A stretch of DNA of 64,000 nucleotides from Flavobacterium ajazii (GTDB lineage: Bacteria > Bacteroidota > Bacteroidia > Flavobacteriales > Flavobacteriaceae). Shown piece by piece: positions 5,574 to 64,000 of this stretch (the first letter of the stretch is position 1; each line of letters starts with the position of its first letter). A model generated the notes under the pieces. That model was not told where the DNA came from. It searched no databases and saw nothing but the letters and a program-made list of their open reading frames with translations. The stretch covers positions 124,001 to 188,000 of the forward strand of contig NZ_JAAEHL010000007.1 in NCBI RefSeq assembly GCF_010614725.1. The letters run 5' to 3'. The position numbers and the translations under genes are program-made.

Positions 5574-8570
5574 ATGAAAAAAACAATATTACTACTCTTC
5601 CTAAGCTTTTTTATAACAAAAATACAAGCTCAGGATTACTTTCCGGTTAACGAAAGTATACATAACAAAAACAACAATTATACGGTTTTCACAAACGCTG
5701 TGATCTACATCACACCAAAACAAAAAATTGAAAAGGGAACTTTAATTGTACAGAATGGTAAAGTTATTAATGTTGGTAACAATATCTCAATTCCAAAAAA
5801 TGCAATTGTTATTAGCCTTGAAGGCAAAACAATCTATCCCTCTTTTATTGACATTTATACCAGTTTTGGAATTGAAAAGCCTAAACGCAACTTAACACCG
5901 GGAAGAGAAGATAATATTTATGACACAAAAAAAACTGGCCGTTATTGGAATGAAAGCATATTAACTGAATTAAACGGATATGAGACATTCAAATATGATC
6001 AGCCAAAAGCTGAGGAATTTTTAAAAGCAGGTTTTGGAGTTGTAGGAACCCATATTCATGACGGAGTTGCACAAGGGACAGGACTTTTGGTTGCTTTGAA
6101 TAATACAGATGGTAAAAATCAAATTATTTCGAACAAAATAACTAATCATTTTTCTTTCAGCAGAAGTGCCTTAACAAATCAGGCGTACCCGAGTTCTTTA
6201 ATGGGGTCGATGGCACTGCTTCGTCAAATGTATTTTGATTTGGATTGGTATAAAAAAGGAAATTCAGATACGAAAGATTTATCATTAGAAGCTTTGGCTG
6301 CAAATGAAAAACTAATCCAAATTTTCGCTTCAGAAGATAAACTAAATAGTCTTAGAGCTTCTAAAATAGCTAAAGAATTTGGTCTAAATTACATTCTGAA
6401 AGGAAGCGGAAATGAGTTTGAAAGAATTGAAGAAATTAAAAACACCAATTCAAAATTCATTATTCCAATCAGTTTTCCTGAAGCTTATGATGTTTCTAAT
6501 CCGTATTTATCCAATCAGATAGAACTCGCTGATATGCGTTTCTGGAATCAGGCCCCTACCAATCCTAAAGTACTTTCTGATAACGGAGTCGCTTTTGCCC
6601 TGACAACTGACAAATTAAAAAAAACAGAAGATTTTAGAATTAATCTTTTAAAATCAATAAAATATGGTTTTGATAAAACAAAAGCTCTGGAAGCACTGAC
6701 TACTGTTCCTGCTGCAATTTTAGGAAAAAGCAACGAAATCGGAAGCTTGAAAACCGGAAGTTTTGCCAATTTTATAATTACCTCGGGTGAAATATTTGAC
6801 GAAAAAACAATTTTATACGAGAACTGGGTTCAGGGAAATAAATACGTTATAAACGATATCAATGCAAAAGACATTCGTGGCAATTACAATCTGACCATTG
6901 GAAATGAAACCTTAAAATGGAAAATCGACGGAACAGCAGAAGCTCCAAAATCCGAAATAACTACTGTGGGTGATAAAAAAGTAAAAAACACTTTTTCTGT
7001 TTCTAAAAACTGGATTTCACTTTTGATAAAATCCAATGATACTATAAAATCTAATTTTACCCGTTTAACCGGATTTGTAGAAAATGCTAATAATCTTTCA
7101 GGAAAAGGTGAATTATACAATGGAACTCAGGTAAACTGGACAGCTGTAAAAACATCTCCATTTGTAGCTATAAAAGATACTGTAAAACCAGAAAAACCAA
7201 ATCCAATCATATCTACGACTTTTCCTAATATTGCTTTTGGAAATTCAAAAAAGTTAACAGCACAAACTTTACTCTTTAAAAATACAACGGTTTGGACCAA
7301 TGAAAAAGACGGAATTTTAACAGAAACTGATGTTTTGATAAAAAACGGAAAAATCGTGTCTATTGGTAAAAATCTTTCAGATGCATCTGCAACAATTATT
7401 GATGCTAAAGGAAAACATCTTACCAGTGGAATTATTGATGAACATTCGCATATCGCCATCTCAAAAGGGGTAAATGAAATGGGGCATAATTCAACTGCCG
7501 AAGTCACCATTGAAGATGTAGTCAACTCAGAAGATATCAACATATACAGAGACTTAGCGGGAGGTGTGACTATTTCGCAATTATTACATGGTTCTGCAAA
7601 CCCAATCGGTGGGCGCTCCGCTATCGTAAAATGGAAATGGGGGCTTTCTCCTGACGAAATGCTGTATAAAAATCAGCCTAAATTTATCAAATTTGCTTTG
7701 GGAGAAAATGTAAAGCAGTCCAATTGGGGACTTATTAACCCAACCCGTTATCCTCAGACCAGAATGGGAGTCGAACAGGTTTTTACAGACTATTTTCAGC
7801 GTGCCAAAGAATATGATGAAAACTGGAAAAAATTCAATGCTAATCCTAAAAAAGAAAAAGCGCCAAGAATTGACCTTGAATTACAAACACTGGCCGAAAT
7901 CCTAAACAAAAAACGCTTCATTACCTGTCACTCTTATGTTGAATCAGAAATATTGATGCTAATGAGAGTTGCAGATAAATTCAATTTTAATGTGAACACT
8001 TTTACACATATCCTGGAAGGATATAAAGTTGCAGACAAGATGAAAGAGCATGGCGTTGGAGCTTCAACCTTTTCAGACTGGTGGGCATATAAATTTGAAG
8101 TAAATGATGCCATTCCTTTCAATGGGCCTATCATGCATAATGAAGGATTAGTTGTTGCCTATAACTCAGATGACGCAGAAATGTCCCGAAGGTTAAATCA
8201 GGAAGCTGCAAAAGCTGTAAAGTACGGCAACATTTCAGAAGAAGAAGCCTGGAAATTTGTAACCCTTAACCCTGCCAAACTATTACACATTGATGATAAA
8301 GTTGGAAGTATTAAAATTGGTAAAGATGCAGATGTAGTACTTTGGAACGACAATCCTTTATCCGTTTATGCTAAAGCAGAAAAAACAATTATTGAAGGCG
8401 TTGTTTATTTTGACATAGAAAAAGAGCTTGAAAAACAGGAAGCCATCACAAAAGAAAGAAATCAGTTAATCGGTCAAATGCTTCAGGAAAAAAACAAAGG
8501 AATGAGCACACAGGAACCAACAAAAAAAGAGAAAAAAGAATATCATTGTGACACTTTAGAACAATACTAA
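5574..8570 (+). CDS. Secreted two-domain amidohydrolase-superfamily protein
   Basis: A 998-residue protein with a Sec signal peptide (MKKTILLLFLSFFITKIQAQ). It holds two amidohydrolase-like units in tandem. The N-terminal unit (about 25-440) keeps the composite-domain pattern (VQNGKVINVG, GKTIYPSFIDIYTSFGIEKP) but lacks the metal-binding HxH, which is IYT here. The C-terminal unit (about 560-970) keeps it: GIIDEHSHIAIS at about 618-629, then further metal-site histidines in THILEGYKVADKM and the late aspartate in VVAYNSDDAEMSRR. It resembles imidazolonepropionase-like or prolidase-like periplasmic enzymes of Bacteroidota; the substrate is unknown. The next gene, 27 bp downstream, is a related shorter protein, so the two are probably co-transcribed and may act together. 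Confidence 0.88.
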   Translation: MKKTILLLFLSFFITKIQAQDYFPVNESIHNKNNNYTVFTNAVIYITPKQKIEKGTLIVQNGKVINVGNNISIPKNAIVISLEGKTIYPSFIDIYTSFGIEKPKRNLTPGREDNIYDTKKTGRYWNESILTELNGYETFKYDQPKAEEFLKAGFGVVGTHIHDGVAQGTGLLVALNNTDGKNQIISNKITNHFSFSRSALTNQAYPSSLMGSMALLRQMYFDLDWYKKGNSDTKDLSLEALAANEKLIQIFASEDKLNSLRASKIAKEFGLNYILKGSGNEFERIEEIKNTNSKFIIPISFPEAYDVSNPYLSNQIELADMRFWNQAPTNPKVLSDNGVAFALTTDKLKKTEDFRINLLKSIKYGFDKTKALEALTTVPAAILGKSNEIGSLKTGSFANFIITSGEIFDEKTILYENWVQGNKYVINDINAKDIRGNYNLTIGNETLKWKIDGTAEAPKSEITTVGDKKVKNTFSVSKNWISLLIKSNDTIKSNFTRLTGFVENANNLSGKGELYNGTQVNWTAVKTSPFVAIKDTVKPEKPNPIISTTFPNIAFGNSKKLTAQTLLFKNTTVWTNEKDGILTETDVLIKNGKIVSIGKNLSDASATIIDAKGKHLTSGIIDEHSHIAISKGVNEMGHNSTAEVTIEDVVNSEDINIYRDLAGGVTISQLLHGSANPIGGRSAIVKWKWGLSPDEMLYKNQPKFIKFALGENVKQSNWGLINPTRYPQTRMGVEQVFTDYFQRAKEYDENWKKFNANPKKEKAPRIDLELQTLAEILNKKRFITCHSYVESEILMLMRVADKFNFNVNTFTHILEGYKVADKMKEHGVGASTFSDWWAYKFEVNDAIPFNGPIMHNEGLVVAYNSDDAEMSRRLNQEAAKAVKYGNISEEEAWKFVTLNPAKLLHIDDKVGSIKIGKDADVVLWNDNPLSVYAKAEKTIIEGVVYFDIEKELEKQEAITKERNQLIGQMLQEKNKGMSTQEPTKKEKKEYHCDTLEQY

Positions 8571-8597
8571 AGAGATTTCAAATAATAAGACAACATT

Positions 8598-9905
8598 ATG
8601 ATAGCTAAAAACATATATATAGTCCTGTTGGCTTTCTGTTCTACAATACAGATCAAAGCACAGCAGACTCCCGCGCCAAAACAAACAAAATCGATACTGA
8701 TATTAAATGCTACGGCACATTTAGGAAACGGAAAAGTAATCGAAAAAAGCGCCATAGGCTTTAAAGAAGGTAAACTCACATTAGTAGCTGATGCTTCAAC
8801 AATAAGACTTGCAGATAATGCTTATGACAGTACTATTGATGCTACAGGAAAACATGTTTATCCTGGTTTTATCGCTCCAAATTCTACTTTAGGACTTGTT
8901 GAAATTGATGCTGTAAAATCATCTGACGATCAGGAGGAAATTGGAAATATTAATCCTAATGTGAGAAGTATTATCGCTTATAATTCAACTTCAAAAGTTA
9001 CGGAGACTGTTCGTCCAAACGGAATTTTAATAGCCCAAATAGTTCCTCGTGGAGGCAGAATTTCCGGAACATCCTCAATTGTCCAGCTGGATGCCTGGAC
9101 ATGGGAAGATGCTACGATAAAAGAAAATGACGGAATCCATTTAAATTTCCCATCAGGGTTTAGAAGAACCGGTAACTGGTTTGAACCCGGAATAATTGAA
9201 CCAAACAAAGATTATGCAGCACAGGTTAACGAAATAAATACTTTTTTAATTAATTCTAAAGCTTATTTAGGAGATGCTTCAAAAGAAAGGAACCTGATTT
9301 TCGAATCCACAAAAGGCCTTTTTGATGGCTCACAAATCTTGTTCATCCATGCTGATGAAGAAAAACAAATTACGGATGCAATCCAGTTAGCGCAAAGCAA
9401 CGGAATAAAAAAAATCGTTATTGTAGGAGGCTTTGAAGCTTATAAAACTGCTGATTTATTACAAAAAAATAATATTGGAGTTCTTTTAAGACGTGTCCAT
9501 GATATGCCAACAAGTGATGATCAGGATGTAAGAGCTCCTTTTAAAATGGCTAAGATTCTAACCGACAAAGGAATTTTGGTGGGACTTGAAAATAGCGGAG
9601 ACAACGAACGCATGAATACCCGCAATTTACCATTTTTAGCAGGAACCTGTGCTGCTTACGGACTTGATAAAGAAAAAGCATTACAATTAATAACTTTAAA
9701 TACAGCACAATTATTAGGTATCGATACATTCTGTGGCTCTTTAGAAACGGGAAAAGATGCCACTTTATTTATTTCTGAAGGAGATGCCTTAGATATGAGA
9801 ACTAATCAGCTTACGCATGCTTTTATCCAGGGAAGAGCTATAAGTCTTGAAACACATCAGACTAAACTGAATAAAAAATACAAAGAAAAATACGGTCAGA
9901 AATAG
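8598..9905 (+). CDS. Secreted amidohydrolase-superfamily protein, degenerate metal site
   Basis: 435 residues with an N-terminal signal peptide ending near IQIKAQQ. The amidohydrolase composite fold is visible (GKLTLVADASTIRLADN, GKHVYPGFIAPNSTLGLVEID, LNTAQLLGIDTFCGSLETGKDATLFISEGD), but the usual HxH after PGFID is replaced by APNSTLG, so the binuclear metal centre is incomplete. It follows the 998-residue protein by 27 bp and ends in TAG just before a terminator. It may be a non-catalytic partner of the larger protein, or have a one-metal or different chemistry. Family assignment is firm; activity is doubtful. Confidence 0.85.
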   Translation: MIAKNIYIVLLAFCSTIQIKAQQTPAPKQTKSILILNATAHLGNGKVIEKSAIGFKEGKLTLVADASTIRLADNAYDSTIDATGKHVYPGFIAPNSTLGLVEIDAVKSSDDQEEIGNINPNVRSIIAYNSTSKVTETVRPNGILIAQIVPRGGRISGTSSIVQLDAWTWEDATIKENDGIHLNFPSGFRRTGNWFEPGIIEPNKDYAAQVNEINTFLINSKAYLGDASKERNLIFESTKGLFDGSQILFIHADEEKQITDAIQLAQSNGIKKIVIVGGFEAYKTADLLQKNNIGVLLRRVHDMPTSDDQDVRAPFKMAKILTDKGILVGLENSGDNERMNTRNLPFLAGTCAAYGLDKEKALQLITLNTAQLLGIDTFCGSLETGKDATLFISEGDALDMRTNQLTHAFIQGRAISLETHQTKLNKKYKEKYGQK

Positions 9906-52892: not shown

Positions 52893-54296
52893 TTATACGT
52901 GTATAGCTCTGTTTTCAGTAGCTGCCAACGCTGCTTCTTTTACTGCTTCCGCAAAAGTTGGGTGTGCGTGGCTCATTCTTGAAATATCTTCAGCAGACGC
53001 TTTGAATTCCATTGCAGTAACTGCCTCAGCAATTAAATCTGCTGTACGTGCTCCAATCATGTGAACTCCTAAAACCTCATCTGTTTTCTCATCAGCAAGG
53101 ATTTTTACGAATCCGTCTAAGTCAGCACTTGCTCTTGCACGTCCTAAAGCTTTGAATGGGAAACTTCCGGATTTATATTTTACTCCGGCTGCTTTCAATT
53201 GCTCTTCCGTTTGTCCAACTGCCGCAACTTCCGGCCACGTATACACTACACCAGGAATTAAGTTGTAATCGATATGTGGCTTTTGCCCTGCTAAGATTTC
53301 AGCAACCATTACTCCTTCTTCCTCTGCCTTGTGCGCTAACATCGCTCCTCGAACAACGTCACCAATTGCATAGATATTTGGAACACTGGTCTGTAAATGA
53401 TCGTTTACTTCAACTTGTCCTCTGTCTGAAATTTTAACTCCGGCTTTGTCAGCGTTTAATCCGTCTGTGTAAGGACGGCGACCAACAGAAACTAATGAGT
53501 AATCTCCTTCAAGAGTGATTGTTTCTCCTTTTGCGTTTTCAGCCTGAACAACAACAGCATCGCCATTTCTTTCAACTGATTTTACTTTGTGAGAAACATA
53601 GAATTTCATTCCTTGTTTTTTCAACACTTTGGTCAATTCTTTAGAAAGCGCTCCGTCCATTCCCGGAATGATTCTGTCCATGAATTCTACTACAGAAACC
53701 TGAGCTCCTAAACGAAGGTAAACTTGTCCAAGCTCGATTCCGATAACTCCTCCTCCAATAATAACTAAGTGTTTTGGAACTTCTTTTAAAGCCAAAGCTT
53801 CAGTAGAAGTGATGATTCTTTCTTTATCAATTTTGATGAATGGTAAAGAAGATGGTTTTGAACCTGTAGCGATTACAGTATATTTTGCTTCAATAGTTTC
53901 TGAAGTTCCGTCAGCTTTTGCAACAGCAATGTGCGTTGCGTCTACGAAAGACCCCAAACCATTGAAAACAGTAATTTTATTTTTATCCATTAAGTAGTTG
54001 ATTCCACCTACGGTTTGATCTACAACGGCCTGTTTGCGCGCAATCATTTTCTCTAAATTGATTTTTACATCACCGGAAACTTCGATTCCGTGATCTGCAA
54101 AATGAGCAATTTCTGCATAATGGTGAGAAGATGATAATAATGCTTTTGAAGGAATACAACCCACATTAAGGCAAGTTCCGCCTAATGAATTATATTTTTC
54201 TACAATAGCAGTTTTGAAACCTAATTGTGCGCAACGAATTGCCGATACATATCCGCCAGGACCTGAACCTATAATGACTACGTCAAATGAACTCAT
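52893..54296 (-). CDS. lpdA: Dihydrolipoyl dehydrogenase
   Basis: 467 residues. FAD site VVIIGSGPGGYVSAIRCAQLG at 6-26, redox-active cysteines C42 and C47 in GGTCLNVGCIPSK, an NAD-binding segment HLVIIGGGVIGIELGQVY at about 175-192, and the interface active-site pair HAHPTFAEAVKEA near residue 445 (His plus Glu). It re-oxidises dihydrolipoamide in the pyruvate, 2-oxoglutarate and branched-chain dehydrogenase complexes or glycine cleavage. It is encoded alone here. The 475 bp upstream (to 54771) contain only the short repeat core at 54721-54736. Confidence 0.96.
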   Translation of the reverse strand: MSSFDVVIIGSGPGGYVSAIRCAQLGFKTAIVEKYNSLGGTCLNVGCIPSKALLSSSHHYAEIAHFADHGIEVSGDVKINLEKMIARKQAVVDQTVGGINYLMDKNKITVFNGLGSFVDATHIAVAKADGTSETIEAKYTVIATGSKPSSLPFIKIDKERIITSTEALALKEVPKHLVIIGGGVIGIELGQVYLRLGAQVSVVEFMDRIIPGMDGALSKELTKVLKKQGMKFYVSHKVKSVERNGDAVVVQAENAKGETITLEGDYSLVSVGRRPYTDGLNADKAGVKISDRGQVEVNDHLQTSVPNIYAIGDVVRGAMLAHKAEEEGVMVAEILAGQKPHIDYNLIPGVVYTWPEVAAVGQTEEQLKAAGVKYKSGSFPFKALGRARASADLDGFVKILADEKTDEVLGVHMIGARTADLIAEAVTAMEFKASAEDISRMSHAHPTFAEAVKEAALAATENRAIHV

Positions 54297-54720
54297 AGTT
54301 TGTTTATTTTATTTTTAGCGTCACAAATTTAAGGAATAAAGTTTTGTTTAAAGTTTAAATTTGAATGTTTTTTATGTGATTTTATTGTGGATACGTGATT
54401 TTTTTGACAGGAAATTTTTCTTCGGAAAGATTCAGAAATATAAACAAAAAGGTTCAGAAAATTAAGGGTTCTATCCGAATTTCTTAAAAGGAGCCGGAAA
54501 CAAAAATTATCTCAAAATTGTTTAGTGAAATAATTAAGCATTCTATTTAATTAATGAAAGCGAACAAAATGCTTCTTTTTTATTTTAGAACAGTTAAAAA
54601 GGAATTGTCTAAATATCTGGTGACGAAATTTAAATACATGATTATACCACTGACTTTTCTTTCCATAAAAAATGAGACAAACAACACATAATTATTGAAG
54701 AATAAGACTTTGATAAAATT

Positions 54721-54744
54721 CCACACGAAAGGATTCCTGCAAGA
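54721..54744 (+). repeat. Family-2 repeat core, short or degenerate copy A
   Basis: CCACACGAAAGGATTC followed by CTGCAAGAG. The first 16 bases match exactly the core of copies at 56248-56340 and 60713-60803, with the hairpin CACGAA-AGGA-TTCGTG truncated on its right arm. The longer flanks of the other two copies are missing. It is 28 bp from the end of the GNAT gene. Confidence 0.6.
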
Positions 54745-54771
54745 GTGTAAATATTCCGCTTGCGTACTTTT

Positions 54772-55290
54772 TTAATTCATTTTTTTATTCATCACTAAAT
54801 TTTTGTAGGTATTTGATTCCATTGGAAAGTCCACATTACCTATTGAGGTATAACCTTGTCTTTCGTAAAAAGTGATCGCTCTGGTATTGTTGATATAAAC
54901 TTCCAGATTAAATTCTGTAAATCCATTCTTTCGTATCTCCTTTTCGGCTTCATTTATAAGTCCATATCCAATTCCTTTTCCATAAAACCTTTCTAAAACA
55001 TATAGTTTACTTAATTCAGCAACAGGTATTTTTCTTATAGGGCAAATACTGTCATAGATTATTTCAGCAACTCCAATTGGATTTCCATTTTGATAAGCAA
55101 CTAGCAATCTGTCCGGATTATTCTTTATTATATTCTCAATATTTTCAGTTGAGAATCTTTTTGTAATAAAGTTCGCAAATTCAAAAGTAACTCCATCAAC
55201 AGCATATGTCTGAATATAAACAGTTTTAAGCAAAACAGATATCCTTAAAGAGTCTGACAGCTTCGCTTTTCCAATTGAAAATTCGTTCAT
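54772..55290 (-). CDS. GNAT-family N-acetyltransferase
   Basis: Start at MNEFSIGKAKLSDSLRISVL (172 residues); nine further upstream codons are possible. The acetyl-CoA motif A is clear: VAELSKLYVLERFYGKGIGYGLINEAEKEI, the core being R/KxxGxG/A. It is followed by FNLEVYINNTRAITFYERQGY, motif B. The family acetylates amines of antibiotics, proteins or metabolites; the substrate is unknown. It lies in the accessory zone between repeat copies A and B, away from core genes. Confidence 0.85.
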   Translation of the reverse strand: MNEFSIGKAKLSDSLRISVLLKTVYIQTYAVDGVTFEFANFITKRFSTENIENIIKNNPDRLLVAYQNGNPIGVAEIIYDSICPIRKIPVAELSKLYVLERFYGKGIGYGLINEAEKEIRKNGFTEFNLEVYINNTRAITFYERQGYTSIGNVDFPMESNTYKNLVMNKKMN

Positions 55291-55326
55291 TTTAGTTTTT
55301 TTTCTTGTGATGCACAATATTAGGTA

Positions 55327-55443
55327 TTATAGGGACTTTGTCACTAAATTAAGCTCATTCTTCGGATTTACTAAATCATCTAAAACAGAACCTTTTCCTT
55401 TGAGCTTATTGCCTAAATCTTTTGTAGTAGTTAAGCAATAGCA
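55327..55443 (-). pseudogene. Coding-like fragment downstream of a lipoprotein gene
   Basis: One frame reads LTTTKDLGNKLKGKGSVLDD and then LVNPKNELNLVTKSL to the TAA at 55327, with no start codon of its own. It looks like the C-terminal end of a protein whose front part is missing. The fragment follows the lipoprotein gene directly. The open frame is short, so chance cannot be excluded. Confidence 0.35.
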
Positions 55444-55444
55444 T

Positions 55445-56062
55445 TTATGACATTGTGCAATTGTTAGATTTGTAATAAGTTCCGTTATTCTTCAACTTAA
55501 AATTTCCAATGGAGTCTATTTCTACTTTTATTGATTCCTTTGTTTCGGGACAGCTTTTATATTTCATCATATATAATTCAAATCCATTATTTGTTTTTTT
55601 AAATGAGCCCGCTTTTTTTTCTTTCGGGTCAAGCCACAAATCATTCATGTGTAAAATCAGAATTGCTTCAGCAAGATTATCAATTTCACCAATGAATTTT
55701 TTCATTTCTACTTCATCTGTGACGTAATGGACATCATCGTTTTCAATATATGTAACATATGAAAAACAACTATTAGGCAAACATTCATTAAAAAAACCTG
55801 ATTCAGGAGGATAAAAAGTATAATTATTTCTAATTAATGTATCACCATGTTTTCTAATAACCTCTTTTTGGTTATTATGTAAATCTGGTATGAATTTAAC
55901 ATATTCCCAATACACATATTCTTTATTTGGTTTTATCTGTTCGATTAATTTATTTCTATCTTGATATTCATTATCAATTTTAGTAAAACCTTTTTCAATT
56001 CGGACAGAATTCTTTCCGCAAGATATTAAACTTAGAAGAATTAATATTGATATTTTTTTCAT
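55445..56062 (-). CDS. Small lipoprotein of unknown function
   Basis: 205 residues with a lipobox near residue 15 (LILLSLISCGKNS). The mature protein has many cysteines (NECLPNSCFSY, KSCPE, SNNCTMS), which may form disulfides in the periplasm. No domain was recognised. It lies in the accessory zone next to a GNAT gene, with a coding-like fragment just downstream. Single small lipoproteins of this kind can be immunity proteins for secreted toxins, but no toxin gene is present here. Confidence 0.65.
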   Translation of the reverse strand: MKKISILILLSLISCGKNSVRIEKGFTKIDNEYQDRNKLIEQIKPNKEYVYWEYVKFIPDLHNNQKEVIRKHGDTLIRNNYTFYPPESGFFNECLPNSCFSYVTYIENDDVHYVTDEVEMKKFIGEIDNLAEAILILHMNDLWLDPKEKKAGSFKKTNNGFELYMMKYKSCPETKESIKVEIDSIGNFKLKNNGTYYKSNNCTMS

Positions 56063-56247
56063 TCACATTTTGGTTTAATATATTGCCTATCAATCCTATT
56101 AATACATATTGACGCAATTTGATTTCGCTTTATACATTTTCAAAAATAACCAAAAAAGATTACAAAATACCAAAAGAAAGTAGCACTATTCTTTTCAAGC
56201 TTAATTTAATTATTCCCTAATTGTAAACTTGTGTCATTTAAGAAAGC

Positions 56248-56340
56248 TCTTTTGATTTACATAATTGTTTGTATGAGTATGAAACTCATGTCAGCAAGGG
56301 AACAAGGTTTCAAAAAGCCACACGAAAGGATTCGTACGGG
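56248..56340 (+). repeat. Family-2 direct repeat, copy B (left of the copper cassette)
   Basis: TCTTTTGATTTACAT, then a small hairpin ATGAGT/ACTCAT, then GGAACAAGGTTTCAAAAA and the core GCCACACGAAAGGATTCGT. Copy C at 60713-60803 has the same blocks in the same order and orientation, but its own hairpin sequence. The core itself is a hairpin (CACGAA-AGGA-TTCGT, one mismatch here). Copy B lies 77 bp past the SCO-fusion stop. Confidence 0.75.
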
Positions 56341-56416
56341 AGCTTTTTTTTGGCAAAGTGGCTTTTATACTATCAGTTTTCCATTTCTTTGACCAGTTTC
56401 ATAGGATACCCGGAAC

Positions 56417-58057
56417 CTAAGTAGTTGTTTTCAGCTTCTGTTTCTTTTTCACGATCACCGGTCTGAAAAGGCTTTCTACCCACCCCTGTAATCGCTGAAA
56501 CCATGAAAAGGACAGGCTGTTTAAAATCGAGCCCAGTAAAATGAATACTATCCCCACATACGTGCCTGTTCTCAGATTCAGCCATAGACCGCAGATCAGA
56601 AACGTAGCTGCGCCGAGGACGCTAACCCAAAACGGTGTTAATCCATTCCGTTTGTTTCGTGCCCGGTACAGTAACCAGAGGTTGACTCCGATCCCAAGTA
56701 CGAACAGTGGAACCAGCCAAGGAGAATACGGAATGGCTTTCATGCCTGCAATTCCAAAGGCACTCATGTAAGCAGCCCAGCAGACGGGGCACTTTGGAAA
56801 TACTGCAATGAGCAAAGGAAAAACTATGGTCCTGAGATTTTCGGAAACAGCTTTTGCAGTCTGACTCACCTTGCCTGCAGGTATCTCTTTTATCAGTCTT
56901 CCTATTTTATCCCTGATTTCATCCTCGCTCCATTGAATTCTGATCAGGGTATTCCTGATTCTTCCCTTATAATCCAGAAGATAAGTCTCCACCTGATGCT
57001 GATTTACAATAGAGGTGGAATAACCGACCTCCAGACTAAAATGCTCTTTCAGCAATTCGTAATCCCCAGGCGATACACGAAAGGCTTTGAATGAATCTGA
57101 AAATTCACAACGACGGGTTTCCGCATACACCCTGATTCGTTCAGGAAGGTCATAGACCGGATCATAAGTAATGAGCGCTACATTTACTTTATTCTGGAGA
57201 TTTACTTCAAGGAGTGCTTTTGCAAGTCTCCCTGTATTGCCCACAGTCAGAGAACATTTATTAATCGCAATACAACGGGTATAGAAAAAACTAACCACTG
57301 TTGGCTTCCCCTGAAAAAAAGAAGAAAACGGAACCTTAGCTCCGTTCTGATCTTCCATAACAATGTTTTTTAACAACGGATTTATCCTGCCTCTTCCCGG
57401 TACGGTTTCTTTTCTCCCCGCTAATTTTGGTGAAGGTCCACAACAGGAGAAATCCACTTCATGCGGGTCCCCCTCAATCGTCTCAATCGCCCGCTTTATT
57501 TCCTCAAGCACTTCATACTGAAAGTCTGAAGCCTCCGCATATTTTTTTAATTGCGGAATCGCCTCCTGCGCATAGGCACCAAGCCAGGCAAAGGTTTTAA
57601 AAACTTCGCTCAGACCGGTAGTAAAATTTGTGACAGGCCAAACTGGTTTGTACGTATCAAATGTAACCGCATCGTCCATATAACGAATGTTTACCACCGC
57701 TTCGAGGAGATAAGGTACCACTTCCGGATGGGGCTGAGCCATGCCACGGATTGCTCTGGCAGCACCGGCTATGAGATAGGCGCTGCGGGTATTGTACAGG
57801 TCTTCCATGGCGAATATCAAAGCTGCGGGCGGCAAGCCTGTCACTTCAAAAGCAGCCAAAATGTACCCTCTCAGGCGTATACATTCCTGCGTGCCCCTCC
57901 CGTTGTAGAGCACATGACTCTCACGCAGCAGTGGGAGCAATTCATTCCTGAGTTCAGGATTTGCCCGAACTTCATCCACAAATGCAGCGATGTTTTCCTC
58001 AGAAGTGTGCTTGCCAAATGTTACGAGGGTCTTGTTGTCTTTTCTTTTCCAAAACAT
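56417..58057 (-). CDS. Fusion of HEAT-like repeats, SCO-type copper/thiol domain and CPVC membrane domain
   Basis: 546 residues. Residues ~20-195 are alpha-helical HEAT-like repeats. DFSCC (C205, C206) marks the junction. Residues ~225-390 are a SCO1/SenC-like thioredoxin fold: VSFFYTRCIAINKCSLTV carries C262 and C268, and VNQHQVETYLLD carries H354, the third SCO copper ligand. The spacing between the cysteines is C-x5-C rather than the usual C-x3-C. Residues ~408-520 have four hydrophobic helices, the first two bracketing FPKCPVCWAAYMSAFGIAG (C423, C426), which resembles mercury/copper transport or MauE-type redox membrane domains. It starts 28 bp after the tyrosinase gene, so it is a likely copper insertion or thiol-redox partner of that enzyme. 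Direct partnership is inference. Confidence 0.8.
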   Translation of the reverse strand: MFWKRKDNKTLVTFGKHTSEENIAAFVDEVRANPELRNELLPLLRESHVLYNGRGTQECIRLRGYILAAFEVTGLPPAALIFAMEDLYNTRSAYLIAGAARAIRGMAQPHPEVVPYLLEAVVNIRYMDDAVTFDTYKPVWPVTNFTTGLSEVFKTFAWLGAYAQEAIPQLKKYAEASDFQYEVLEEIKRAIETIEGDPHEVDFSCCGPSPKLAGRKETVPGRGRINPLLKNIVMEDQNGAKVPFSSFFQGKPTVVSFFYTRCIAINKCSLTVGNTGRLAKALLEVNLQNKVNVALITYDPVYDLPERIRVYAETRRCEFSDSFKAFRVSPGDYELLKEHFSLEVGYSTSIVNQHQVETYLLDYKGRIRNTLIRIQWSEDEIRDKIGRLIKEIPAGKVSQTAKAVSENLRTIVFPLLIAVFPKCPVCWAAYMSAFGIAGMKAIPYSPWLVPLFVLGIGVNLWLLYRARNKRNGLTPFWVSVLGAATFLICGLWLNLRTGTYVGIVFILLGSILNSLSFSWFQRLQGWVESLFRPVIVKKKQKLKTTT

Positions 58058-58085
58058 GGGACAATGCGCTTTTGTTTAAAGTGAA

Positions 58086-60428
58086 TTATAAAAGTGATTT
58101 CAGTCTTTTTAGCAGAATTCCAAAGTCATCTTCTCTGGCTTCGCTGCTTTCTCTATTTGCCTTTAATAGTTTTGGCCGTTCAGCATGCTCCCTGATTTTG
58201 TCCAGAAGTTCTCCGTCTTGACGGATTTTGTTGAGGCCATCTTCTTCCTGAAGGGTAAGTTTAGATAACAGTACTGTTAACAAGTGATAATCCTGTTCTT
58301 CCTCATCCTTAAATGTTTCAACTGCTTTTGCAAGCATAAGGTTAGGATCTTGAGCTTCCAGCGCATGGGCGGATGCTTCCCGCACTTCCGATGATTCTGT
58401 TTTATTCCCGAAAAGAGAAAGCAGAAAATCTTTGCTGGCTGTATCGGAAGACAAAGCGTGGATGGCCATGATTTTTGCCTTTTCATCCGTGGATTCTTCT
58501 GCAACCTTTCTAAACAGGTCGAGGAAATTATGGGGATCAAGTGACAGATAATAAACTGCTGATTCGTCTGAAACAATAGCCTTTTCCGGATTTTCCAGTC
58601 CCTCTTTCAGCTCCCTTTGTAACCATTCGTCTTTTTGGTATGCCAGCAAATCAATAGCTTCAAGAGCAATGCGTCTGTCCTTGTCCCTGATCAATTTGCG
58701 CAGGCCTTCTATCACTATAGGGCGAAACTGTTTAAATGCGGAGCCTTCAAAACCTAAAACCCGGATTTGAAGCATCACCGTTTTTCTTAATTCCGCAGGC
58801 TCGGAAAGGTCTGTCAGTATGCTGATAAGAATCCTTACAAATTCTTCCGTATGCCCAAGGTATCTGGTAAGAAGCTGCACTACCCCGCTTCTGACTGCTG
58901 CAGGTTCCTGTTTGTCAGTAACAATTTTGGTCAAACCGTCCAGTTCGCCAATAGGTTCTTCAATGGAGTCCAACGCCACAAGCCGCAGCTGACTGTCAAG
59001 ATTCTTGTTCAGAATTTGTTGAATATGCTGATTTCCTGTCATAGCCATAGTTTTCAGTAAAGGTAAGGAAGGAGGAACGGTGAAATGGAAAGGGACATTG
59101 TCGTAGTCAAATCCAATGGAATTATTTGGGTCAAGCCTGCCTTTATAATCAATCACCTCCTCAATGGTGGGTTGTGAAGCAGGGTTAGGTAATACTTTGT
59201 ATCCTTTTTTAACGGTAGGATATTCCCCATAAGGCGCTTGTGGCGGTCGGGGAGCTTGTGTATCTCCGTTCCATGGCCATTGTGTTTGTTGAGAATATGC
59301 CCCGAATCCTAAGTCCCGGTTTGGGCTCAATCCCTGTGGCGAATAACTGTCAGCATCTTCCGGTGTAAATCGATCCCACTGATTCTGCCATAGTGCCCAC
59401 AAACGGTCCACATTGGAGTGCAACATAAAAAAAACCGGGTCCTGAGGAGCGGTTGGAATATCTGAAATCTGCCCCCTGAAACTCATGTGACCACCTCCAT
59501 GTGGCGCACTGAAGACATATCCTGGACGGGAGCCCCGTGGTCTGTTCTGATCCCAAAATAAGTTAAGGTAAATCCCTTTCCCCATGTTTATTGCATAGGC
59601 CTCCGGAGCTTTCCTGTCTATCAGTACGTCCCAGCCTCCATTGAGAGTCAGATCCCAGTTGAAGGCAGACCTAAGCAGCATAGCAGAACCAGGTGGTTTC
59701 CAATTCCGCCAAGGGTTCGAAAGAGAGAAAGTCGGGACAGATCCCGGGTTTTCGTCTTCATTGGTAACCATTATTTTTCCGGCAAAATTTTCACTAAAGA
59801 GATTGGGTGCAGGAAAATCCCAGCGCCAATAATGAAGAGATACACTGGAATCAATTTCCTGCAGGTCTCTTTCCAGGTTCAAAAGATACAAGCGGTGCCA
59901 GGGAAGAAAATTTTCGTAAAAGTGAATTTCATTATCCGTGTTCGCTATATGCATGTCTGTGAACTGCTTGTAAAATGCGTATCCGTCCTTTTGGTTTAAT
60001 TGGGCGAATGCTCTGATGAACCGCATTTTCTCTTCTTCAGTAAGGGTCTCGGCATCCTTTCTCACCCGCACCATCAGGGCTTCAGCCACAACAGGTTCGG
60101 CAGTGGGGTTTAAATTGGGGTCATCCTGAAAAACACAGATTTCAATGTCTTTGTCACGAGTGCTGGCATTTCCAAAATCTCCGGTGAGATAAAAAGTAGT
60201 CCAGGTTTCATCCTCACAAATTAATGTTGCGGTTGGATATACTGTCTTACGGAGTGCATCGGTAAAAACGGCCCGGCCCATGCCCAGATTTCTTGTTCTG
60301 AGGTACAGAATTTTGTTGCCACTGTTACCCCCTACTCGGATATGACAAATGGAAGGTCCCCATGCCAAATAGGGAAGATGAAGATCATTTTCAGGATCAG
60401 GGCAATTAATTTTAATTTCTATATTCAT
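58086..60428 (-). CDS. Tyrosinase-family type-3 copper enzyme with C-terminal HEAT-like domain
   Basis: Start at the ATG 60428 (MNIEIKINCPDPENDLHLPY); three codons further up the frame begins with TTG. It gives 780 residues. There is no signal peptide. Residues ~1-115 are an N-terminal beta domain. Residues ~125-400 form the tyrosinase core with both copper sites: CuA H160, H169 and H178 (MHIANTDNEIHFYENFLPWHR) and CuB H310, H314 and H337 (APHGGGHMSF and DPVFFMLHSNVDRLW), with the canonical Hx8H and HxxxH spacings. Residues ~450-780 are HEAT-like helical repeats. The family oxidises phenols or catechols to quinones. The next gene is a SCO-like fusion that also has HEAT-like repeats. Base composition looks richer in G+C than the adjacent lipoprotein and GNAT genes. 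Confidence 0.9.
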   Translation of the reverse strand: MNIEIKINCPDPENDLHLPYLAWGPSICHIRVGGNSGNKILYLRTRNLGMGRAVFTDALRKTVYPTATLICEDETWTTFYLTGDFGNASTRDKDIEICVFQDDPNLNPTAEPVVAEALMVRVRKDAETLTEEEKMRFIRAFAQLNQKDGYAFYKQFTDMHIANTDNEIHFYENFLPWHRLYLLNLERDLQEIDSSVSLHYWRWDFPAPNLFSENFAGKIMVTNEDENPGSVPTFSLSNPWRNWKPPGSAMLLRSAFNWDLTLNGGWDVLIDRKAPEAYAINMGKGIYLNLFWDQNRPRGSRPGYVFSAPHGGGHMSFRGQISDIPTAPQDPVFFMLHSNVDRLWALWQNQWDRFTPEDADSYSPQGLSPNRDLGFGAYSQQTQWPWNGDTQAPRPPQAPYGEYPTVKKGYKVLPNPASQPTIEEVIDYKGRLDPNNSIGFDYDNVPFHFTVPPSLPLLKTMAMTGNQHIQQILNKNLDSQLRLVALDSIEEPIGELDGLTKIVTDKQEPAAVRSGVVQLLTRYLGHTEEFVRILISILTDLSEPAELRKTVMLQIRVLGFEGSAFKQFRPIVIEGLRKLIRDKDRRIALEAIDLLAYQKDEWLQRELKEGLENPEKAIVSDESAVYYLSLDPHNFLDLFRKVAEESTDEKAKIMAIHALSSDTASKDFLLSLFGNKTESSEVREASAHALEAQDPNLMLAKAVETFKDEEEQDYHLLTVLLSKLTLQEEDGLNKIRQDGELLDKIREHAERPKLLKANRESSEAREDDFGILLKRLKSLL

Positions 60429-60712
60429 TGTTGTCAAGTTTTAATGGATCAATAGATAGTATAAGCTACCTCATAACTTATATATACACGAAACAAACAT
60501 TCGTATATCCACCTCTATTAAGACGGATTGACAGAATTTACTTTCGTTTTACATCTTTCCAAAAATAATCATAAAAAAAAACACCAAACCAAGTGTATAC
60601 ACCTGTTTTTAAACACATTACTTCTTTTTATCTAAAACAATTAAAATATAAAAGTTAATACCTGATATATCCCCGATTTTCATCAGGAACACTTCCAGCA
60701 ATGGAAAAATTC

Positions 60713-60803
60713 TTTTTGATTTACATTGTGTGCACAAGTGCGACACCTGCACTTGCGCCAGAGGAACGGGGGTTCAAAAGCCACACGAAAGGATTCGTGC
60801 GGG
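60713..60803 (+). repeat. Family-2 direct repeat, copy C (right of the copper cassette)
   Basis: TTTTTGATTTACATTGTG, then a hairpin AAGTGC (60736-60741) with GCACTT (60749-60754), extendable to nine of ten pairs. GGAACGGGGGTTCAAAAG follows, then the core GCCACACGAAAGGATTCGTG with a perfect CACGAA-AGGA-TTCGTG stem-loop. It repeats copy B with a substituted but still paired first hairpin. It lies 285 bp before the tyrosinase start. The sequence in between (60429-60712) shows no gene; a short near-dyad around 60486-60508 (ACGAA...TTCGT) could be an operator. Confidence 0.75.
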
Positions 60804-60828
60804 AACGGGGAAAGCAGCCGGAGCAAGA

Positions 60829-60921
60829 GCCAGTAAATCTTCTTTAGAAATTGAAAACCTTTTAAAAGAATTTAGAAAAGTTTCTATTGAAGAATCTAAA
60901 AAGCAATTCATCTTACTTTAA
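60829..60921 (+). pseudogene. Short coding-like fragment beside the repeat
   Basis: The last ~30 codons of an open frame read RASKSSLEIENLLKEFRKVS and then IEESKKQFILL, ending at the TAA 60919-60921, with codon use like a real gene. The frame's 5' half is the family-2 repeat, so the fragment probably lost its front when the repeat or cassette arrived. It has no start of its own. A terminator follows. The family was not recognised. Confidence 0.4.
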
Positions 60922-60922
60922 A

Positions 60923-60950
60923 CCCTTTCGGGCTTTCCTAAGGGCTTTTT
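60923..60950 (+). terminator. Terminator after the coding fragment
   Basis: CCCTT/AAGGG stem (60923-60927 with 60940-60944) followed by CTTTTT. It is modest, but placed directly after the fragment's stop. Confidence 0.5.
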
Positions 60951-61012
60951 AATTTTATATTATTACTATAATTTCAATTAAAGCAGGTTATTAAGAGATA
61001 TCTCTTCTTAAT

Positions 61013-61462
61013 TTAGCGCAGTGCCGGATGCATCATTTCATTTAGAATTGATAACGTAAGAGGATCAAATTGCCCTGAAAAAAAAGCATCTAATACCTCC
61101 TGAAAGACAGGATTAGTATTATCTGTTAAACTAAAAAGTGTCATTGAGGATTGCAATTTACGTGCATCGAGATCTCCAAAAATAGATTCTACTGATTTCA
61201 TTTTAAAACTCAGCAATACTTCTGCGCTTTCAATAATATGCTTTCTTAGTATTGGATGTGCCAGGAATTCTTCGCTTTGCTGTAAATTTTCGATAGCATA
61301 TAGCTCCGACATTTCACTTCTTCCGAGTCCTTTTATCTGAGGGAATATAAACCACATCCAATGTGTTTCTTTTTTGCCTTTTTTAAGCTCAGAAAGAGCT
61401 GTTAGATATAGTTTGTTTTGTGCTTCTAAAAAGCGTGTCAGGTCATTTTTTATTGCTGCCAT
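61013..61462 (-). CDS. DUF1810-family protein
   Basis: 149 residues covering the whole DUF1810 domain: NDLTRFLEAQNKLYLTALSELKKGKKETHWMWFIFPQIKGLG, then YAIENLQQSEEFLAHPILRKHI and FGDLDARKLQSSMTLFSL. Members are small cytoplasmic helical proteins (about 150 residues, E. coli YfeK-like size class) whose biochemical role is not established; some relatives are calpastatin-annotated without support. Single gene. Confidence 0.88.
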   Translation of the reverse strand: MAAIKNDLTRFLEAQNKLYLTALSELKKGKKETHWMWFIFPQIKGLGRSEMSELYAIENLQQSEEFLAHPILRKHIIESAEVLLSFKMKSVESIFGDLDARKLQSSMTLFSLTDNTNPVFQEVLDAFFSGQFDPLTLSILNEMMHPALR

Positions 61463-62242
61463 TGGGGTAGGTGGTTTTAATAATTGGTTTGAAAAGTAAT
61501 AAAAAATATAATGCCACCTAAAAAATATAGAAGAATAAACGGTTAAATTGACCTCAAATTTTCTGATTGTTTGAAATGGATTACAAACATTTTTTCATAA
61601 ATCTGACTTTAAGCAATTTAACAATATAGCTATATAAAAAATGACGCTAAACTTATTTATGCTTCCTATAAAATGACTGAACCTCACCTCCTCCTGTGTT
61701 AAATTGGTGCAATACATTTTCAATGACATAACACCACAGACAGTATTTAAAGTCAGGAGATTTTAAGAGGTTTTGATTTTACAAAAACATTAAAAAAATA
61801 TGCGAAGTCGGAAACGTTCGCCAGCAAGATATTTACATAGAGCGTTTCATTAGGAACACTTTGGAGAATGGGCTATGTTCATGATTTTGCAACTTAATTC
61901 TACCAATTCTAGCCTTTTTATTGTCCCACACAAGTTTTCTGAACTTCTATTCAAAAAGTGAAGTAAATAGATGGTTTTTGAATCAAATGGATTGCTGTTT
62001 GACGCATTTGGTTTTTGGGCTAAGATGTAGATTTGTAATGCATTTTTAGCTTTTAGCCGTTGGCTTTGTCTATTTACCACAAGGGCGAAAAGGCGCAAGG
62101 TTTTTTTAGCTATCGGCTTGAGACAATGAACACAAGTTTCTGCTGAAAGCTCATTGCCCACAGCTAATAGTTACGCAGGTACAATTATCTTGAATTCAAA
62201 TAATAAAATTCACTCAAAAAAAATAATTTAAAAACTACTATT
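61463..62242. other. Gene-poor interval before the surface protein
   Basis: About 780 bp. The minus strand has a 103-codon frame (61850-62161) judged unlikely to be a gene. It contains GGGCGAAAAGGCGCAAGG near 62081-62098 and other G+C-richer patches unlike the surrounding AT-rich DNA, which suggests imported or repeat-derived sequence. No promoter for the downstream gene could be assigned with confidence. Confidence 0.45.
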
Positions 62243-64000
62243 ATGGAAAAAAACTACTATTTGAAACAAAAAACACTTTTCACGATACTGATTTTTATTT
62301 CATTTCAGACAAATTTTTGGTGTCAATGCGGAACAATTGGTCCTACGGCAAATGAACAACAGATTTATACAAGTTCAGCAACCATTGCTAATTTAACGGC
62401 AACAGGTACAAATTTAAAATGGTATGCAGCAGCAACAGGCGGTACAGCTTTGGCAACTACAACGAGCTTAACAAACAATCTAACGTATTATGTTTCGCAA
62501 ACGGTTTCTGGTTGCGAAAGTGCCCGAACGCCTGTTCTTGTTCGTAGTATAAGTGAAACTGCACAAACATTATGTGGTACAACGAGCCCTACATTTGACA
62601 GTGTAATTACAACGCCAAACCCAGGCACTACCGCTGCTTGGTTTAGTAACAATACGGGCGGTACAGCATTGTCAAATACACAAGCAATAATGAGCAGTAC
62701 ATATTATGTTGAACAAAAATGTCCATTGTCTATTCTAACATTAGGGAGTGGCTTTTTAAAACCTTATGTTGTTACAGTTCAGCCTGATGGCAGAATTTTA
62801 GTGGTAGATACTTTTAACAACGTAATTAAGCGTATGAACGCTGACGGAACGGATATTGTAATCCTCGGAGGTGGATTTAATTTTCCTGTTTCTGCTGCTA
62901 TTCAAGCTGATGGTAAAATTCTTGTGGCAGATTATGGAAACAACGCCATTAAACGAATGAATGCCGATGGAACAGGCATTGTAACAATAGGATCTGGATT
63001 TTTTTTGCCTGCGGGAGTTGCCATTCAAACGGATGGTAAAATTGTGGTGGCAGATTATGGAAACAGTGCAGTGAAACGAATGAATGCTAATGGAACGGGG
63101 ATTGTTACCTTGGGATCGGGCTTTAAACCCAATGGTGTTGCGATTCAAGCCAATGGCCGAATTGTGGTGGCAGACTATGGAAACAATGCCATAAAACGAA
63201 TGAATGCCGACGGAACGGGTATTGTAACACTCGGTTCTGGGTTTAGTAGTCCTACGAATGTTGCAATTCAAGCTGATGGAAAAATTGTGGTGGCAGATTA
63301 TGATAACAATGCAGTGAAACGAATGAATGCCGATGGAACGAATATTGTTACCCTGGATTCTGGGTTTCCAAATCCTTACGGAGTAGCAATTCAAGCTGAT
63401 GGAAAAATTCTGGTGGTTGATGCTGATTATGCCAGCAAAGCTGTAAAACGTATTACAGAGGCTTATAGCACAAATCGTGTACCAGTAAACGTAACTGTAA
63501 ACAATACGCCAGCACCTACCGCTACCGAAACTCAAATTTATACAGACACGTCAACAATTGCTAGTTTAGCAGCAACGGGTACAGGTTTAAAGTGGTATGC
63601 AGCAGCAACAGGTGGGAGTAATTTGGCAACAACAACGAGCCTTACCAACGATGCAACCTATTATGTATCACAAACTGTTTCTGGTTGCGAAAGTACTCGT
63701 ACGCCAATTACCGTTCATAACATAACGGATGGAACTCAAACTTTTTGTAGTATGAGTACCCCAAAAATAGCAAGTTTTATTAGTTCACCGAGTACAAACG
63801 CTACCGTTTCATGGTTTAGTGCCAACACAGGTGGTACAGCACTAACCAGCACAGAGGCATTAACAACTAAACCTTATTATGTAGAGCAAAGATGCCCAGC
63901 TTTTGTTAGCACGCTGGGAAGCGGATTTAAAACCCCTTATAGTATTGCCACACAAACTGATGGCAAAATTCTAATGGCAGACACTGGCAATGCGCTTGTA
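62243..64000 (+). CDS. Large secreted repeat protein: Ig-like and NHL-like propeller modules (5' part)
   Basis: The frame is open from the ATG at 62243 to the window edge (586 codons, no stop). A signal-like N-terminus (TLFTILIFISFQTNFWCQC) leads into Ig-like domain A (about 36-105; NLKWYAAATGGTALATTTSL, YYVSQTVSGCESARTP) and Ig-like domain B (about 106-165; TAAWFSNNTGGTALSNTQAI, YYVEQKCP). Next comes a six-unit propeller (about 166-400) built of VAIQADGKIVVADYGNNAVK then RMNADGTGIVTLGSGF. The set then starts again with Ig A', Ig B' and a second propeller. Ig modules of the 'YYVSQTVSGCES' type belong to the CHU_C-associated group found in large Bacteroidota surface proteins, often type IX secreted. 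The C-terminal sorting signal lies outside the window. Confidence 0.88.
   Translation, partial: MEKNYYLKQKTLFTILIFISFQTNFWCQCGTIGPTANEQQIYTSSATIANLTATGTNLKWYAAATGGTALATTTSLTNNLTYYVSQTVSGCESARTPVLVRSISETAQTLCGTTSPTFDSVITTPNPGTTAAWFSNNTGGTALSNTQAIMSSTYYVEQKCPLSILTLGSGFLKPYVVTVQPDGRILVVDTFNNVIKRMNADGTDIVILGGGFNFPVSAAIQADGKILVADYGNNAIKRMNADGTGIVTIGSGFFLPAGVAIQTDGKIVVADYGNSAVKRMNANGTGIVTLGSGFKPNGVAIQANGRIVVADYGNNAIKRMNADGTGIVTLGSGFSSPTNVAIQADGKIVVADYDNNAVKRMNADGTNIVTLDSGFPNPYGVAIQADGKILVVDADYASKAVKRITEAYSTNRVPVNVTVNNTPAPTATETQIYTDTSTIASLAATGTGLKWYAAATGGSNLATTTSLTNDATYYVSQTVSGCESTRTPITVHNITDGTQTFCSMSTPKIASFISSPSTNATVSWFSANTGGTALTSTEALTTKPYYVEQRCPAFVSTLGSGFKTPYSIATQTDGKILMADTGNALV
62738..63456 (+). 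repeat. Tandem ~123-bp propeller repeats
   Basis: Six units inside the surface-protein gene. The GTGGCAGATTATGGAAAC landmark recurs with its GCA codon at 62927, 63050, 63170 and 63293, giving 120-123-bp spacing (40-41 codons). Units are close in DNA as well as protein sequence, indicating recent expansion or conversion. Confidence 0.85.

Follow-up and report, generated by a model that had tools for sequence, protein, structure and literature searches.

Why should a tyrosinase that apparently remains intracellular, in a bacterial cytosol considered nearly free of copper enzymes, have a SCO protein as its neighbour? The question is raised by a gene pair in a 64,000-nucleotide (nt) stretch of the Flavobacterium ajazii genome (the window, i.e. 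the whole stretch of DNA that was analysed), in which a tyrosinase gene and, downstream of it, the gene for a protein with a SCO domain fused to other parts both lie on the minus strand, as judged from the positions of their open reading frames (ORFs; Table 1). An earlier note on this DNA had described the two ORFs with a spacing of 28 nt, and both were found where it had placed them. The genome holds a single tyrosinase and a single copy of the SCO fusion, and its closest named relative is Flavobacterium poyangense, to which the pair is 84% (tyrosinase) and 86% (SCO-fusion protein) identical. We conclude that the SCO-fusion protein is probably a dedicated copper-supply and insertion partner of the adjoining tyrosinase, acting at the cytosolic face of the inner membrane.

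By its domain and its six histidines, the tyrosinase of the window is assigned to the type-3 copper family PF00264 (Pfam, 6.6e-30, 105.5 bits against a cut-off of 22.6). H160, H169, H178, H310, H314 and H337 are invariant in a seven-row tyrosinase alignment, as expected from the earlier note, which had read them as the copper ligands and the tail of the enzyme as HEAT-like. The tail does match HEAT_2 above the cut-off (3.3e-07, 30.9 bits against 27.7), and its model resembles HEAT/alphaRep-type chains in a structure comparison. With the exception of this tail the tyrosinase model, built from four rows, is poor (mean predicted local distance difference test score, pLDDT, of 54.0), and the tyrosinase part of it was too poor to use; residues 1-120 match no Pfam family above cut-off.

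The second protein is modelled better (mean pLDDT 76.7). Its SCO domain matches SCO1-SenC (PF02630, 9e-09, 35.8 bits against a cut-off of 22.8), and the best structural matches of this domain are SCO1/SenC chains, i.e. 4hde (Z 16.3, root-mean-square deviation 3.1, 164 residues aligned) and 1xzo_A (Z 16.1, 3.0 and 166, respectively); the second structure comparison of the protein took in residues 218-396 only. C262, C268 and H354 are invariant in all eight SCO rows, as are the vicinal linker cysteines C205-C206, which were absent from the earlier note. The canonical SCO motif is C-x3-C. Here the spacing is C-x5-C in 8/8 rows, giving a two-residue gap against the aligned solved SCO proteins, and H354, equated by eye with the canonical SCO histidine, sits in VNxH in every row. 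The N-terminal residues 20-196 are modelled as all-helical with 10-residue confidence means of 69-95, mostly at least 87, and the first membrane helix is broken at the CPVC motif, where confidence is low (50-57). The earlier description of this protein therefore stands for the SCO domain and for the four helices with CPVC, whereas its HEAT-like N-terminus is reduced to an all-helical region without a Pfam HEAT match. The helical parts of the two proteins share no sequence similarity and are therefore not plain duplicates of each other.

Neither protein shows an export signal, as read from their N-termini and windowed hydropathy values; in three genomes (G084, G338 and G436) the longest ORF has a hydrophobic 5' extension, and a later ATG fitting the relatives was taken as the start. 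Hydropathy gave four C-terminal hydrophobic helices in the SCO-fusion protein of the window and no N-terminal membrane segment or signal, and a simple scan gave four helices in 15/18 rows of the alignment of such membrane modules (referred to below as CPxC modules). In all 15 of these rows the distribution of Lys/Arg favours an N-in/C-in orientation, with one such residue or none on the opposite side in 11 rows and two in four rows, including that of the window. The remaining rows are L076 with three helices, L079, which is a decayed copy, and L022 with three helices and undecided counts (7 versus 9). Because the SCO domain is N-terminal to the first helix and shows no signal, it should lie in the cytosol, and the lack of export signals together with the N-in/C-in charges means that copper would be loaded at the cytosolic face.

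The full-length SCO fusion is rare in the genus, being present in 3/398 Flavobacterium genomes (that of the window, G335 and G132); F. poyangense, from another collection, adds a fourth species, and in 4/4 species the tyrosinase-HEAT gene lies directly upstream. When 395 Bacteroidota genomes were scanned with the SCO alignment, no full-length cassette beyond that of the window was detected (G335 and G132 came from the genus scan), and no relative of this alignment was found among the viral contigs. Phyla beyond Bacteroidota were surveyed through plasmid records only, and 6 of 72,556 such records carry the HEAT-SCO protein: one of Paraburkholderia caribensis, two of Bradyrhizobium barranii, two of Rhizobium gallicum and one of Rhizobium sp. 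The order is tyrosinase, separate HEAT-like protein, SCO in 4/4 plasmids inspected, and in the other two the match coordinates place the tyrosinase just upstream of the SCO gene. The adjacency that the earlier note had put forward as a test thus extends to four Flavobacterium species and 6/6 plasmids, i.e. the two genes occur together in two phyla. These six plasmids are also the top six tyrosinase matches among 46 plasmid records, the other 40 giving no match to the SCO query. The separate HEAT proteins of the plasmids align to the tail of the window's tyrosinase-HEAT protein (15 to 24% identity; phmmer 1e-04 to 2e-21), so that two genes in one lineage correspond to one in the other. The cassette tyrosinases form one clade (support 100/99) in a tree of 27 rows for which the tree tool flags long branches meeting, and from which L098 (an exported tyrosinase, no motif) and the Bradyrhizobium tyrosinase, also left out of alignment A2 for its interrupted frame, are absent. 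On the Bradyrhizobium plasmid this tyrosinase gene (L023 3497-5065) seems to be frame-interrupted, with matches in two frames and a short annotated gene; the HEAT and SCO genes beside it are intact.

The membrane part of the fusion is distributed more widely. There were 18 module matches in the 398 Flavobacterium genomes, comprising the three full SCO fusions and 15 that consist of the C-terminal helices only (about 150-170 amino acids, aa, where the whole sequence was read). As these 15 genomes have the module without SCO, the CPxC membrane part is the most widely shared partner; the earlier, SCO-centred view of the partner holds as to adjacency and has to be shifted in this respect. A tyrosinase is present in 17/18 module genomes against 29/380 others (Fisher 9.3e-17, plain counting), and in 10/15 of the standalone-module genomes the module directly adjoins a tyrosinase of another subfamily. 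Outside the genus, a class-wide search of 365 genomes gave five module copies in four genomes, in each of which one copy adjoins a tyrosinase (L080, L081, L130 and L131). All 15 aligned intact standalone modules have at least two cysteines in their first 25 residues, and CPxC is complete in 17/18 rows of the module alignment (A5), from which the G172 module was left out because a contig end cuts it and its matched stretch contains one stop codon. The exception is G405, the one standalone-module genome with no tyrosinase (PF00264) match: its module (L079 6011-6808) no longer has the cysteines of the N-terminus or the first one of CPxC, and beside it only a 92-aa ORF resembling part of TyrB is left, i.e. 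module and tyrosinase have decayed together.

A further association concerns export. A tyrosinase was found in 46/398 Flavobacterium genomes; judged by the N-termini, in 24 of the 46 every tyrosinase has a Sec or Tat/lipoprotein-type signal, and the other 22 encode at least one tyrosinase that lacks an export signal. The CPxC module is present in 17/22 of the latter and in 0/24 of the exported-only genomes. In the remaining 5/22 the tyrosinase gene is directly followed by a gene for a PpoB2-family protein ('Copper chaperone'), identified in two copies by Pfam and in all five by similarity. PpoB2 occurs in exactly those five genomes (5/47 in a search of the 46 tyrosinase genomes and G405), and a second, overlapping draw of 329 Flavobacterium genomes gave PpoB2 in four, all among the same five; PF09948 had no match in the genome of the window. 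Either the module or PpoB2 is thus found in 22/22 genomes with a non-exported tyrosinase and in 0/24 exported-only genomes (1.3e-13 by plain counting, which overstates the significance, as related genomes do not count independently). In Marinomonas mediterranea, PpoB2 is encoded in the tyrosinase operon and takes part in the specific transfer of copper to the tyrosinase of that operon (PMC2855505). Like the module it is a membrane protein, and in Flavobacterium it follows non-exported tyrosinases lacking the module; it belongs to another family (PF09948, COG5486), and its five Flavobacterium copies lack SCO, HEAT and the CPxC module. On this pattern of exclusive exchange among genomes, the CPxC module is a putative replacement for a protein whose job is known; the genome comparisons suggest that such membrane copper helpers go with those tyrosinases that are not exported. 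The earlier proposal that the second protein metallates or reduces the tyrosinase at the membrane is in line with this as far as copper supply is concerned, with the cytosolic side as the place of action.

Dedicated copper helpers beside a tyrosinase (MelC1 and PpoB2) and a SCO gene beside a copper enzyme that is not a cytochrome oxidase (mtoX) are already known. MelC1 of Streptomyces is an operon partner that aids copper entry into tyrosinase (PMC9454253, PMC3817396); unlike the protein described here, this caddie is small, beta-sheet-rich and soluble and sits in the active site. No caddie-type family was found in the pair and three neighbouring ORFs (Pfam, E up to 0.1), which agrees with the earlier claim of a system distinct from caddie-type helpers, although a non-caddie membrane chaperone had already been described in PpoB2 (PMC2855505). 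The mtoX-SCO1/senC-mauG clusters are conserved operons in which a SCO gene likewise accompanies a copper enzyme that is not a cytochrome oxidase, namely a methanethiol oxidase, and in which a maturation role has been proposed (PMC5739008); enzyme and partners differ. Compared with SCO1/SenC, the window's protein keeps the family match, the fold, the two cysteines and the histidine, but apart from its longer motif it shows no N-terminal anchor or signal, is predicted to be cytosolic, carries a fused helical domain as well as C-terminal helices, and is encoded next to a tyrosinase. Bacterial tyrosinases have been listed as secreted (PMC3817396); Streptomyces MelD2 is not secreted (PMC2855505, PMC9454253), so intracellular tyrosinases as such are already known, and the available parts of these two accounts mention no SCO or CPxC module partner for it. 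In the open-access literature searched (most subscription journals lying outside this scope) we found no SCO or CPxC-module partner for a tyrosinase, no cytosolic SCO domain and no link of such partners to non-exported tyrosinases, and the available text of open-access papers naming both tyrosinase and SenC did not link SCO to tyrosinase.

Table 1. Features of the tyrosinase-SCO cassette and its flanks (window positions)
Feature	Position	Strand	Remarks
Tyrosinase-HEAT gene	58086..60428	-	780 aa from ATG; no visible export signal
HEAT-like/SCO/four-helix CPVC gene	56417..58057	-	546 aa
Intergenic gap, 28 nt	58058..58085	-	Between tyrosinase gene and SCO-fusion gene
N-terminal beta-strand domain of tyrosinase, residues 1-120	60069..60428	-	Strands in low-confidence model
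Tyrosinase catalytic domain, residues 121-350	59379..60068	-	Pfam; H160, H169, H178, H310, H314, H337
HEAT solenoid of tyrosinase, about residues 465-754	58167..59036	-	Pfam, phmmer, model; separate protein in proteobacterial plasmids
All-helical, HEAT-like N-terminal part of SCO fusion, residues 20-196	57470..58000	-	Predicted structure; no Pfam match
Vicinal cysteines C205-C206, linker	57440..57445	-	Invariant in 8/8 rows
SCO domain, residues 227-390, C262-x5-C268 and H354	56888..57379	-	Pfam, alignment, model
Four-helix membrane module, residues 396-514	56516..56872	-	Alignment, hydropathy, model
CPVC motif, residues 423-426, at break of first membrane helix	56780..56791	-	Sequence and model
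Left flanking repeat	56096..56341	.	78-nt direct repeat 56096-56173; hairpin repeat 56313-56341
Right flanking repeat	60515..60804	.	60515-60592 (74% to left copy); 60776-60804 (97%)

We propose that the four-helix module with its intramembrane CPxC would take in or capture Cu(I), that at the inner face the vicinal cysteines would accept it and hand it on, and that the cytosolic SCO domain, with its Cys-x5-Cys motif and histidine, would place copper in the tyrosinase, while the partner's helical part and the tyrosinase's HEAT unit may bring the two proteins together during placing of the two coppers. Here we infer that the cargo is copper, which way it moves, the sequence in which it is handed over and that HEAT serves in docking. 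The two 755-aa tyrosinases inspected have two CC motifs each near the N-terminus and the L131 enzyme has one; these motifs would fit a hand-over between cysteines without proving it. The most complete version of the proposal, which we put forward tentatively, is a dedicated cytosolic copper line in which the CPxC module imports Cu(I), the vicinal cysteines relay it, a relocated SCO domain inserts it and HEAT units dock, with the module and PpoB2 as unrelated answers whose presence would predict intracellular copper oxidases.

Several observations weigh against a dedicated copper partner. The genome counts include related genomes, which are not independent. The three Rhizobium and Bradyrhizobium SCO proteins inspected lack the C-terminal helices, so the membrane part cannot be needed everywhere. 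MerC is a four-helix membrane protein with cysteines in its first helix, and the likeness of the modules to it is weak, as PF03203 (MerC) matches in four modules are all below the cut-off (18.5, 15.4, 15.1 and 9.9 bits against 27.6; E-values of 0.0031-0.036 in three standalone modules) and the window's own module has no PF03203 match at all. The longer L131 module lacks N-terminal cysteines. Export signals and topology are predictions from sequence and hydropathy. In addition, the fifth of the module copies found outside the genus (L132) has no tyrosinase nearby, and in 4/15 standalone-module genomes the module is unlinked from their (non-exported) tyrosinase. The tyrosinase type of these four genomes is the 755-aa type, with which the L131 tyrosinase, whose gene adjoins a module, groups with moderate support (93/87); this grouping suggests that 755-aa tyrosinases and unlinked modules belong together too.

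The same parts could also be read as thiol-redox protection, in which a cytosolic SCO domain acting as a thiol reductase or in a peroxiredoxin-like manner would guard the tyrosinase or the cell against quinones and peroxide, and the CPxC helices would anchor it or feed it electrons. Tyrosinases do produce reactive quinones, and the fold is thioredoxin-like, with peroxiredoxin Q (5iiz) close behind the SCO chains (Z 14.4 against 16.3, a margin of about 2). We nevertheless regard this as unlikely, since the module occurs in 15 Flavobacterium genomes without any SCO domain, the protein with which it is exchanged is a copper chaperone, the metal-type SCO histidine is kept in 8/8 rows and exported tyrosinases have neither partner. 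CPxC and vicinal cysteines suit copper handling in either direction, and the module might instead export or store copper, i.e. remove or hold the copper brought by an intracellular copper enzyme, to which we give a somewhat smaller chance again.

It would be very improbable for the two genes to be neighbours by chance, an ordinary SCO gene having been transferred beside a tyrosinase in an accessory block without a functional link. The higher guanine-plus-cytosine (GC) content of the cassette and the repeats around it, which mark it as probably acquired, would be expected under such a history. However, the gene order is the same in two phyla, the adjacency counts disfavour chance, the SCO protein lacks the N-terminal anchor or signal, and the three inspected of nine other plasmid SCO genes, taken as a control, all lie with oxidase-assembly or multicopper-oxidase genes and no tyrosinase.

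If the copper-partner reading is true, the presence of the module or of PpoB2 would point to bacteria that retain a copper oxidase in the cytosol. In the genomes compared, non-exported tyrosinases go with one of two unrelated membrane copper partners, and exported-only genomes with neither. This pattern would make the safe feeding of copper to a cytosolic enzyme testable in culturable soil bacteria, and the CPxC module and CC motifs could serve as markers for finding more such systems. The SCO domain, in this place and context, is undescribed in the literature searched, and co-expression of the partner may help in the production of active tyrosinases.

The cassette was likely acquired in the lineage to which the window and F. 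poyangense belong. Its acquisition is probable because it is richer in GC than its flanks (45.2% against 34.7% in the window) and is flanked by repeats (Table 1). The corresponding values are 44.5 and 31.6 in F. poyangense, 36.8 and 31.1 in G335, and 35.8 and 35.8, i.e. no difference, in G132. The neighbours of the cassette in F. poyangense differ from those in the window, and the hairpin motif was not found around the F. poyangense cassette. This motif, which resembles a repetitive extragenic palindromic (REP)-type repeat, occurs 12 times in the genome of the window (up to 2 mismatches). Seven of the 12 copies lie within about 7 kb on contig C3 (L145), where copies flank a Y1_Tnp gene (IS200-like or of REP-associated tyrosine transposase type; L145 2595-3161), and two Flavo-1 RNA matches (RF01705; L145 6023-6101 and 8202-8280) lie in the same repeat-rich region. 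A degenerate repeat copy is present at window positions 54722-54743.

Other genes recur around the tyrosinases described here. One protein, about 130-160 aa long and with no Pfam family in the two copies tested, is found near these tyrosinase genes (L026 9871-10275, L028 5602-6024, L068 6540-6962, L070 2868-3260, L081 6016-6441, L084-L087 and L131 3531-3992), and none was seen beside the cassette of the window. Three TyrB cassettes have a DUF1842-like protein upstream of the CPxC module (L030 4846-5241, with a Pfam value of 1.5e-13, L069 430-873 and L071 7329-7742). In L084 (1422-7518), and in a similar layout in L086, a 755-aa tyrosinase is accompanied by a LodA-like protein (LodA_N, LodA_C) and a flavin adenine dinucleotide (FAD)-dependent oxidoreductase; these loci occur in genomes with an unlinked CPxC module. 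The L131 module (8433-9092) has an extra N-terminal domain and overlaps the start of the tyrosinase gene (6278-8455), and this genome (G873) has another, more distant module, L132 (8089-8568).

Within the window, positions 54000-64000 gave no Rfam match. A sigma-70 scan returned 11 promoter-like sites against 8.7 (standard deviation 2.8) in shuffled sequences and was not used. Positions 62243-64000 encode a long repeat protein, probably secreted, which continues beyond the end of the window and whose DNA shows 300-nt direct repeats.

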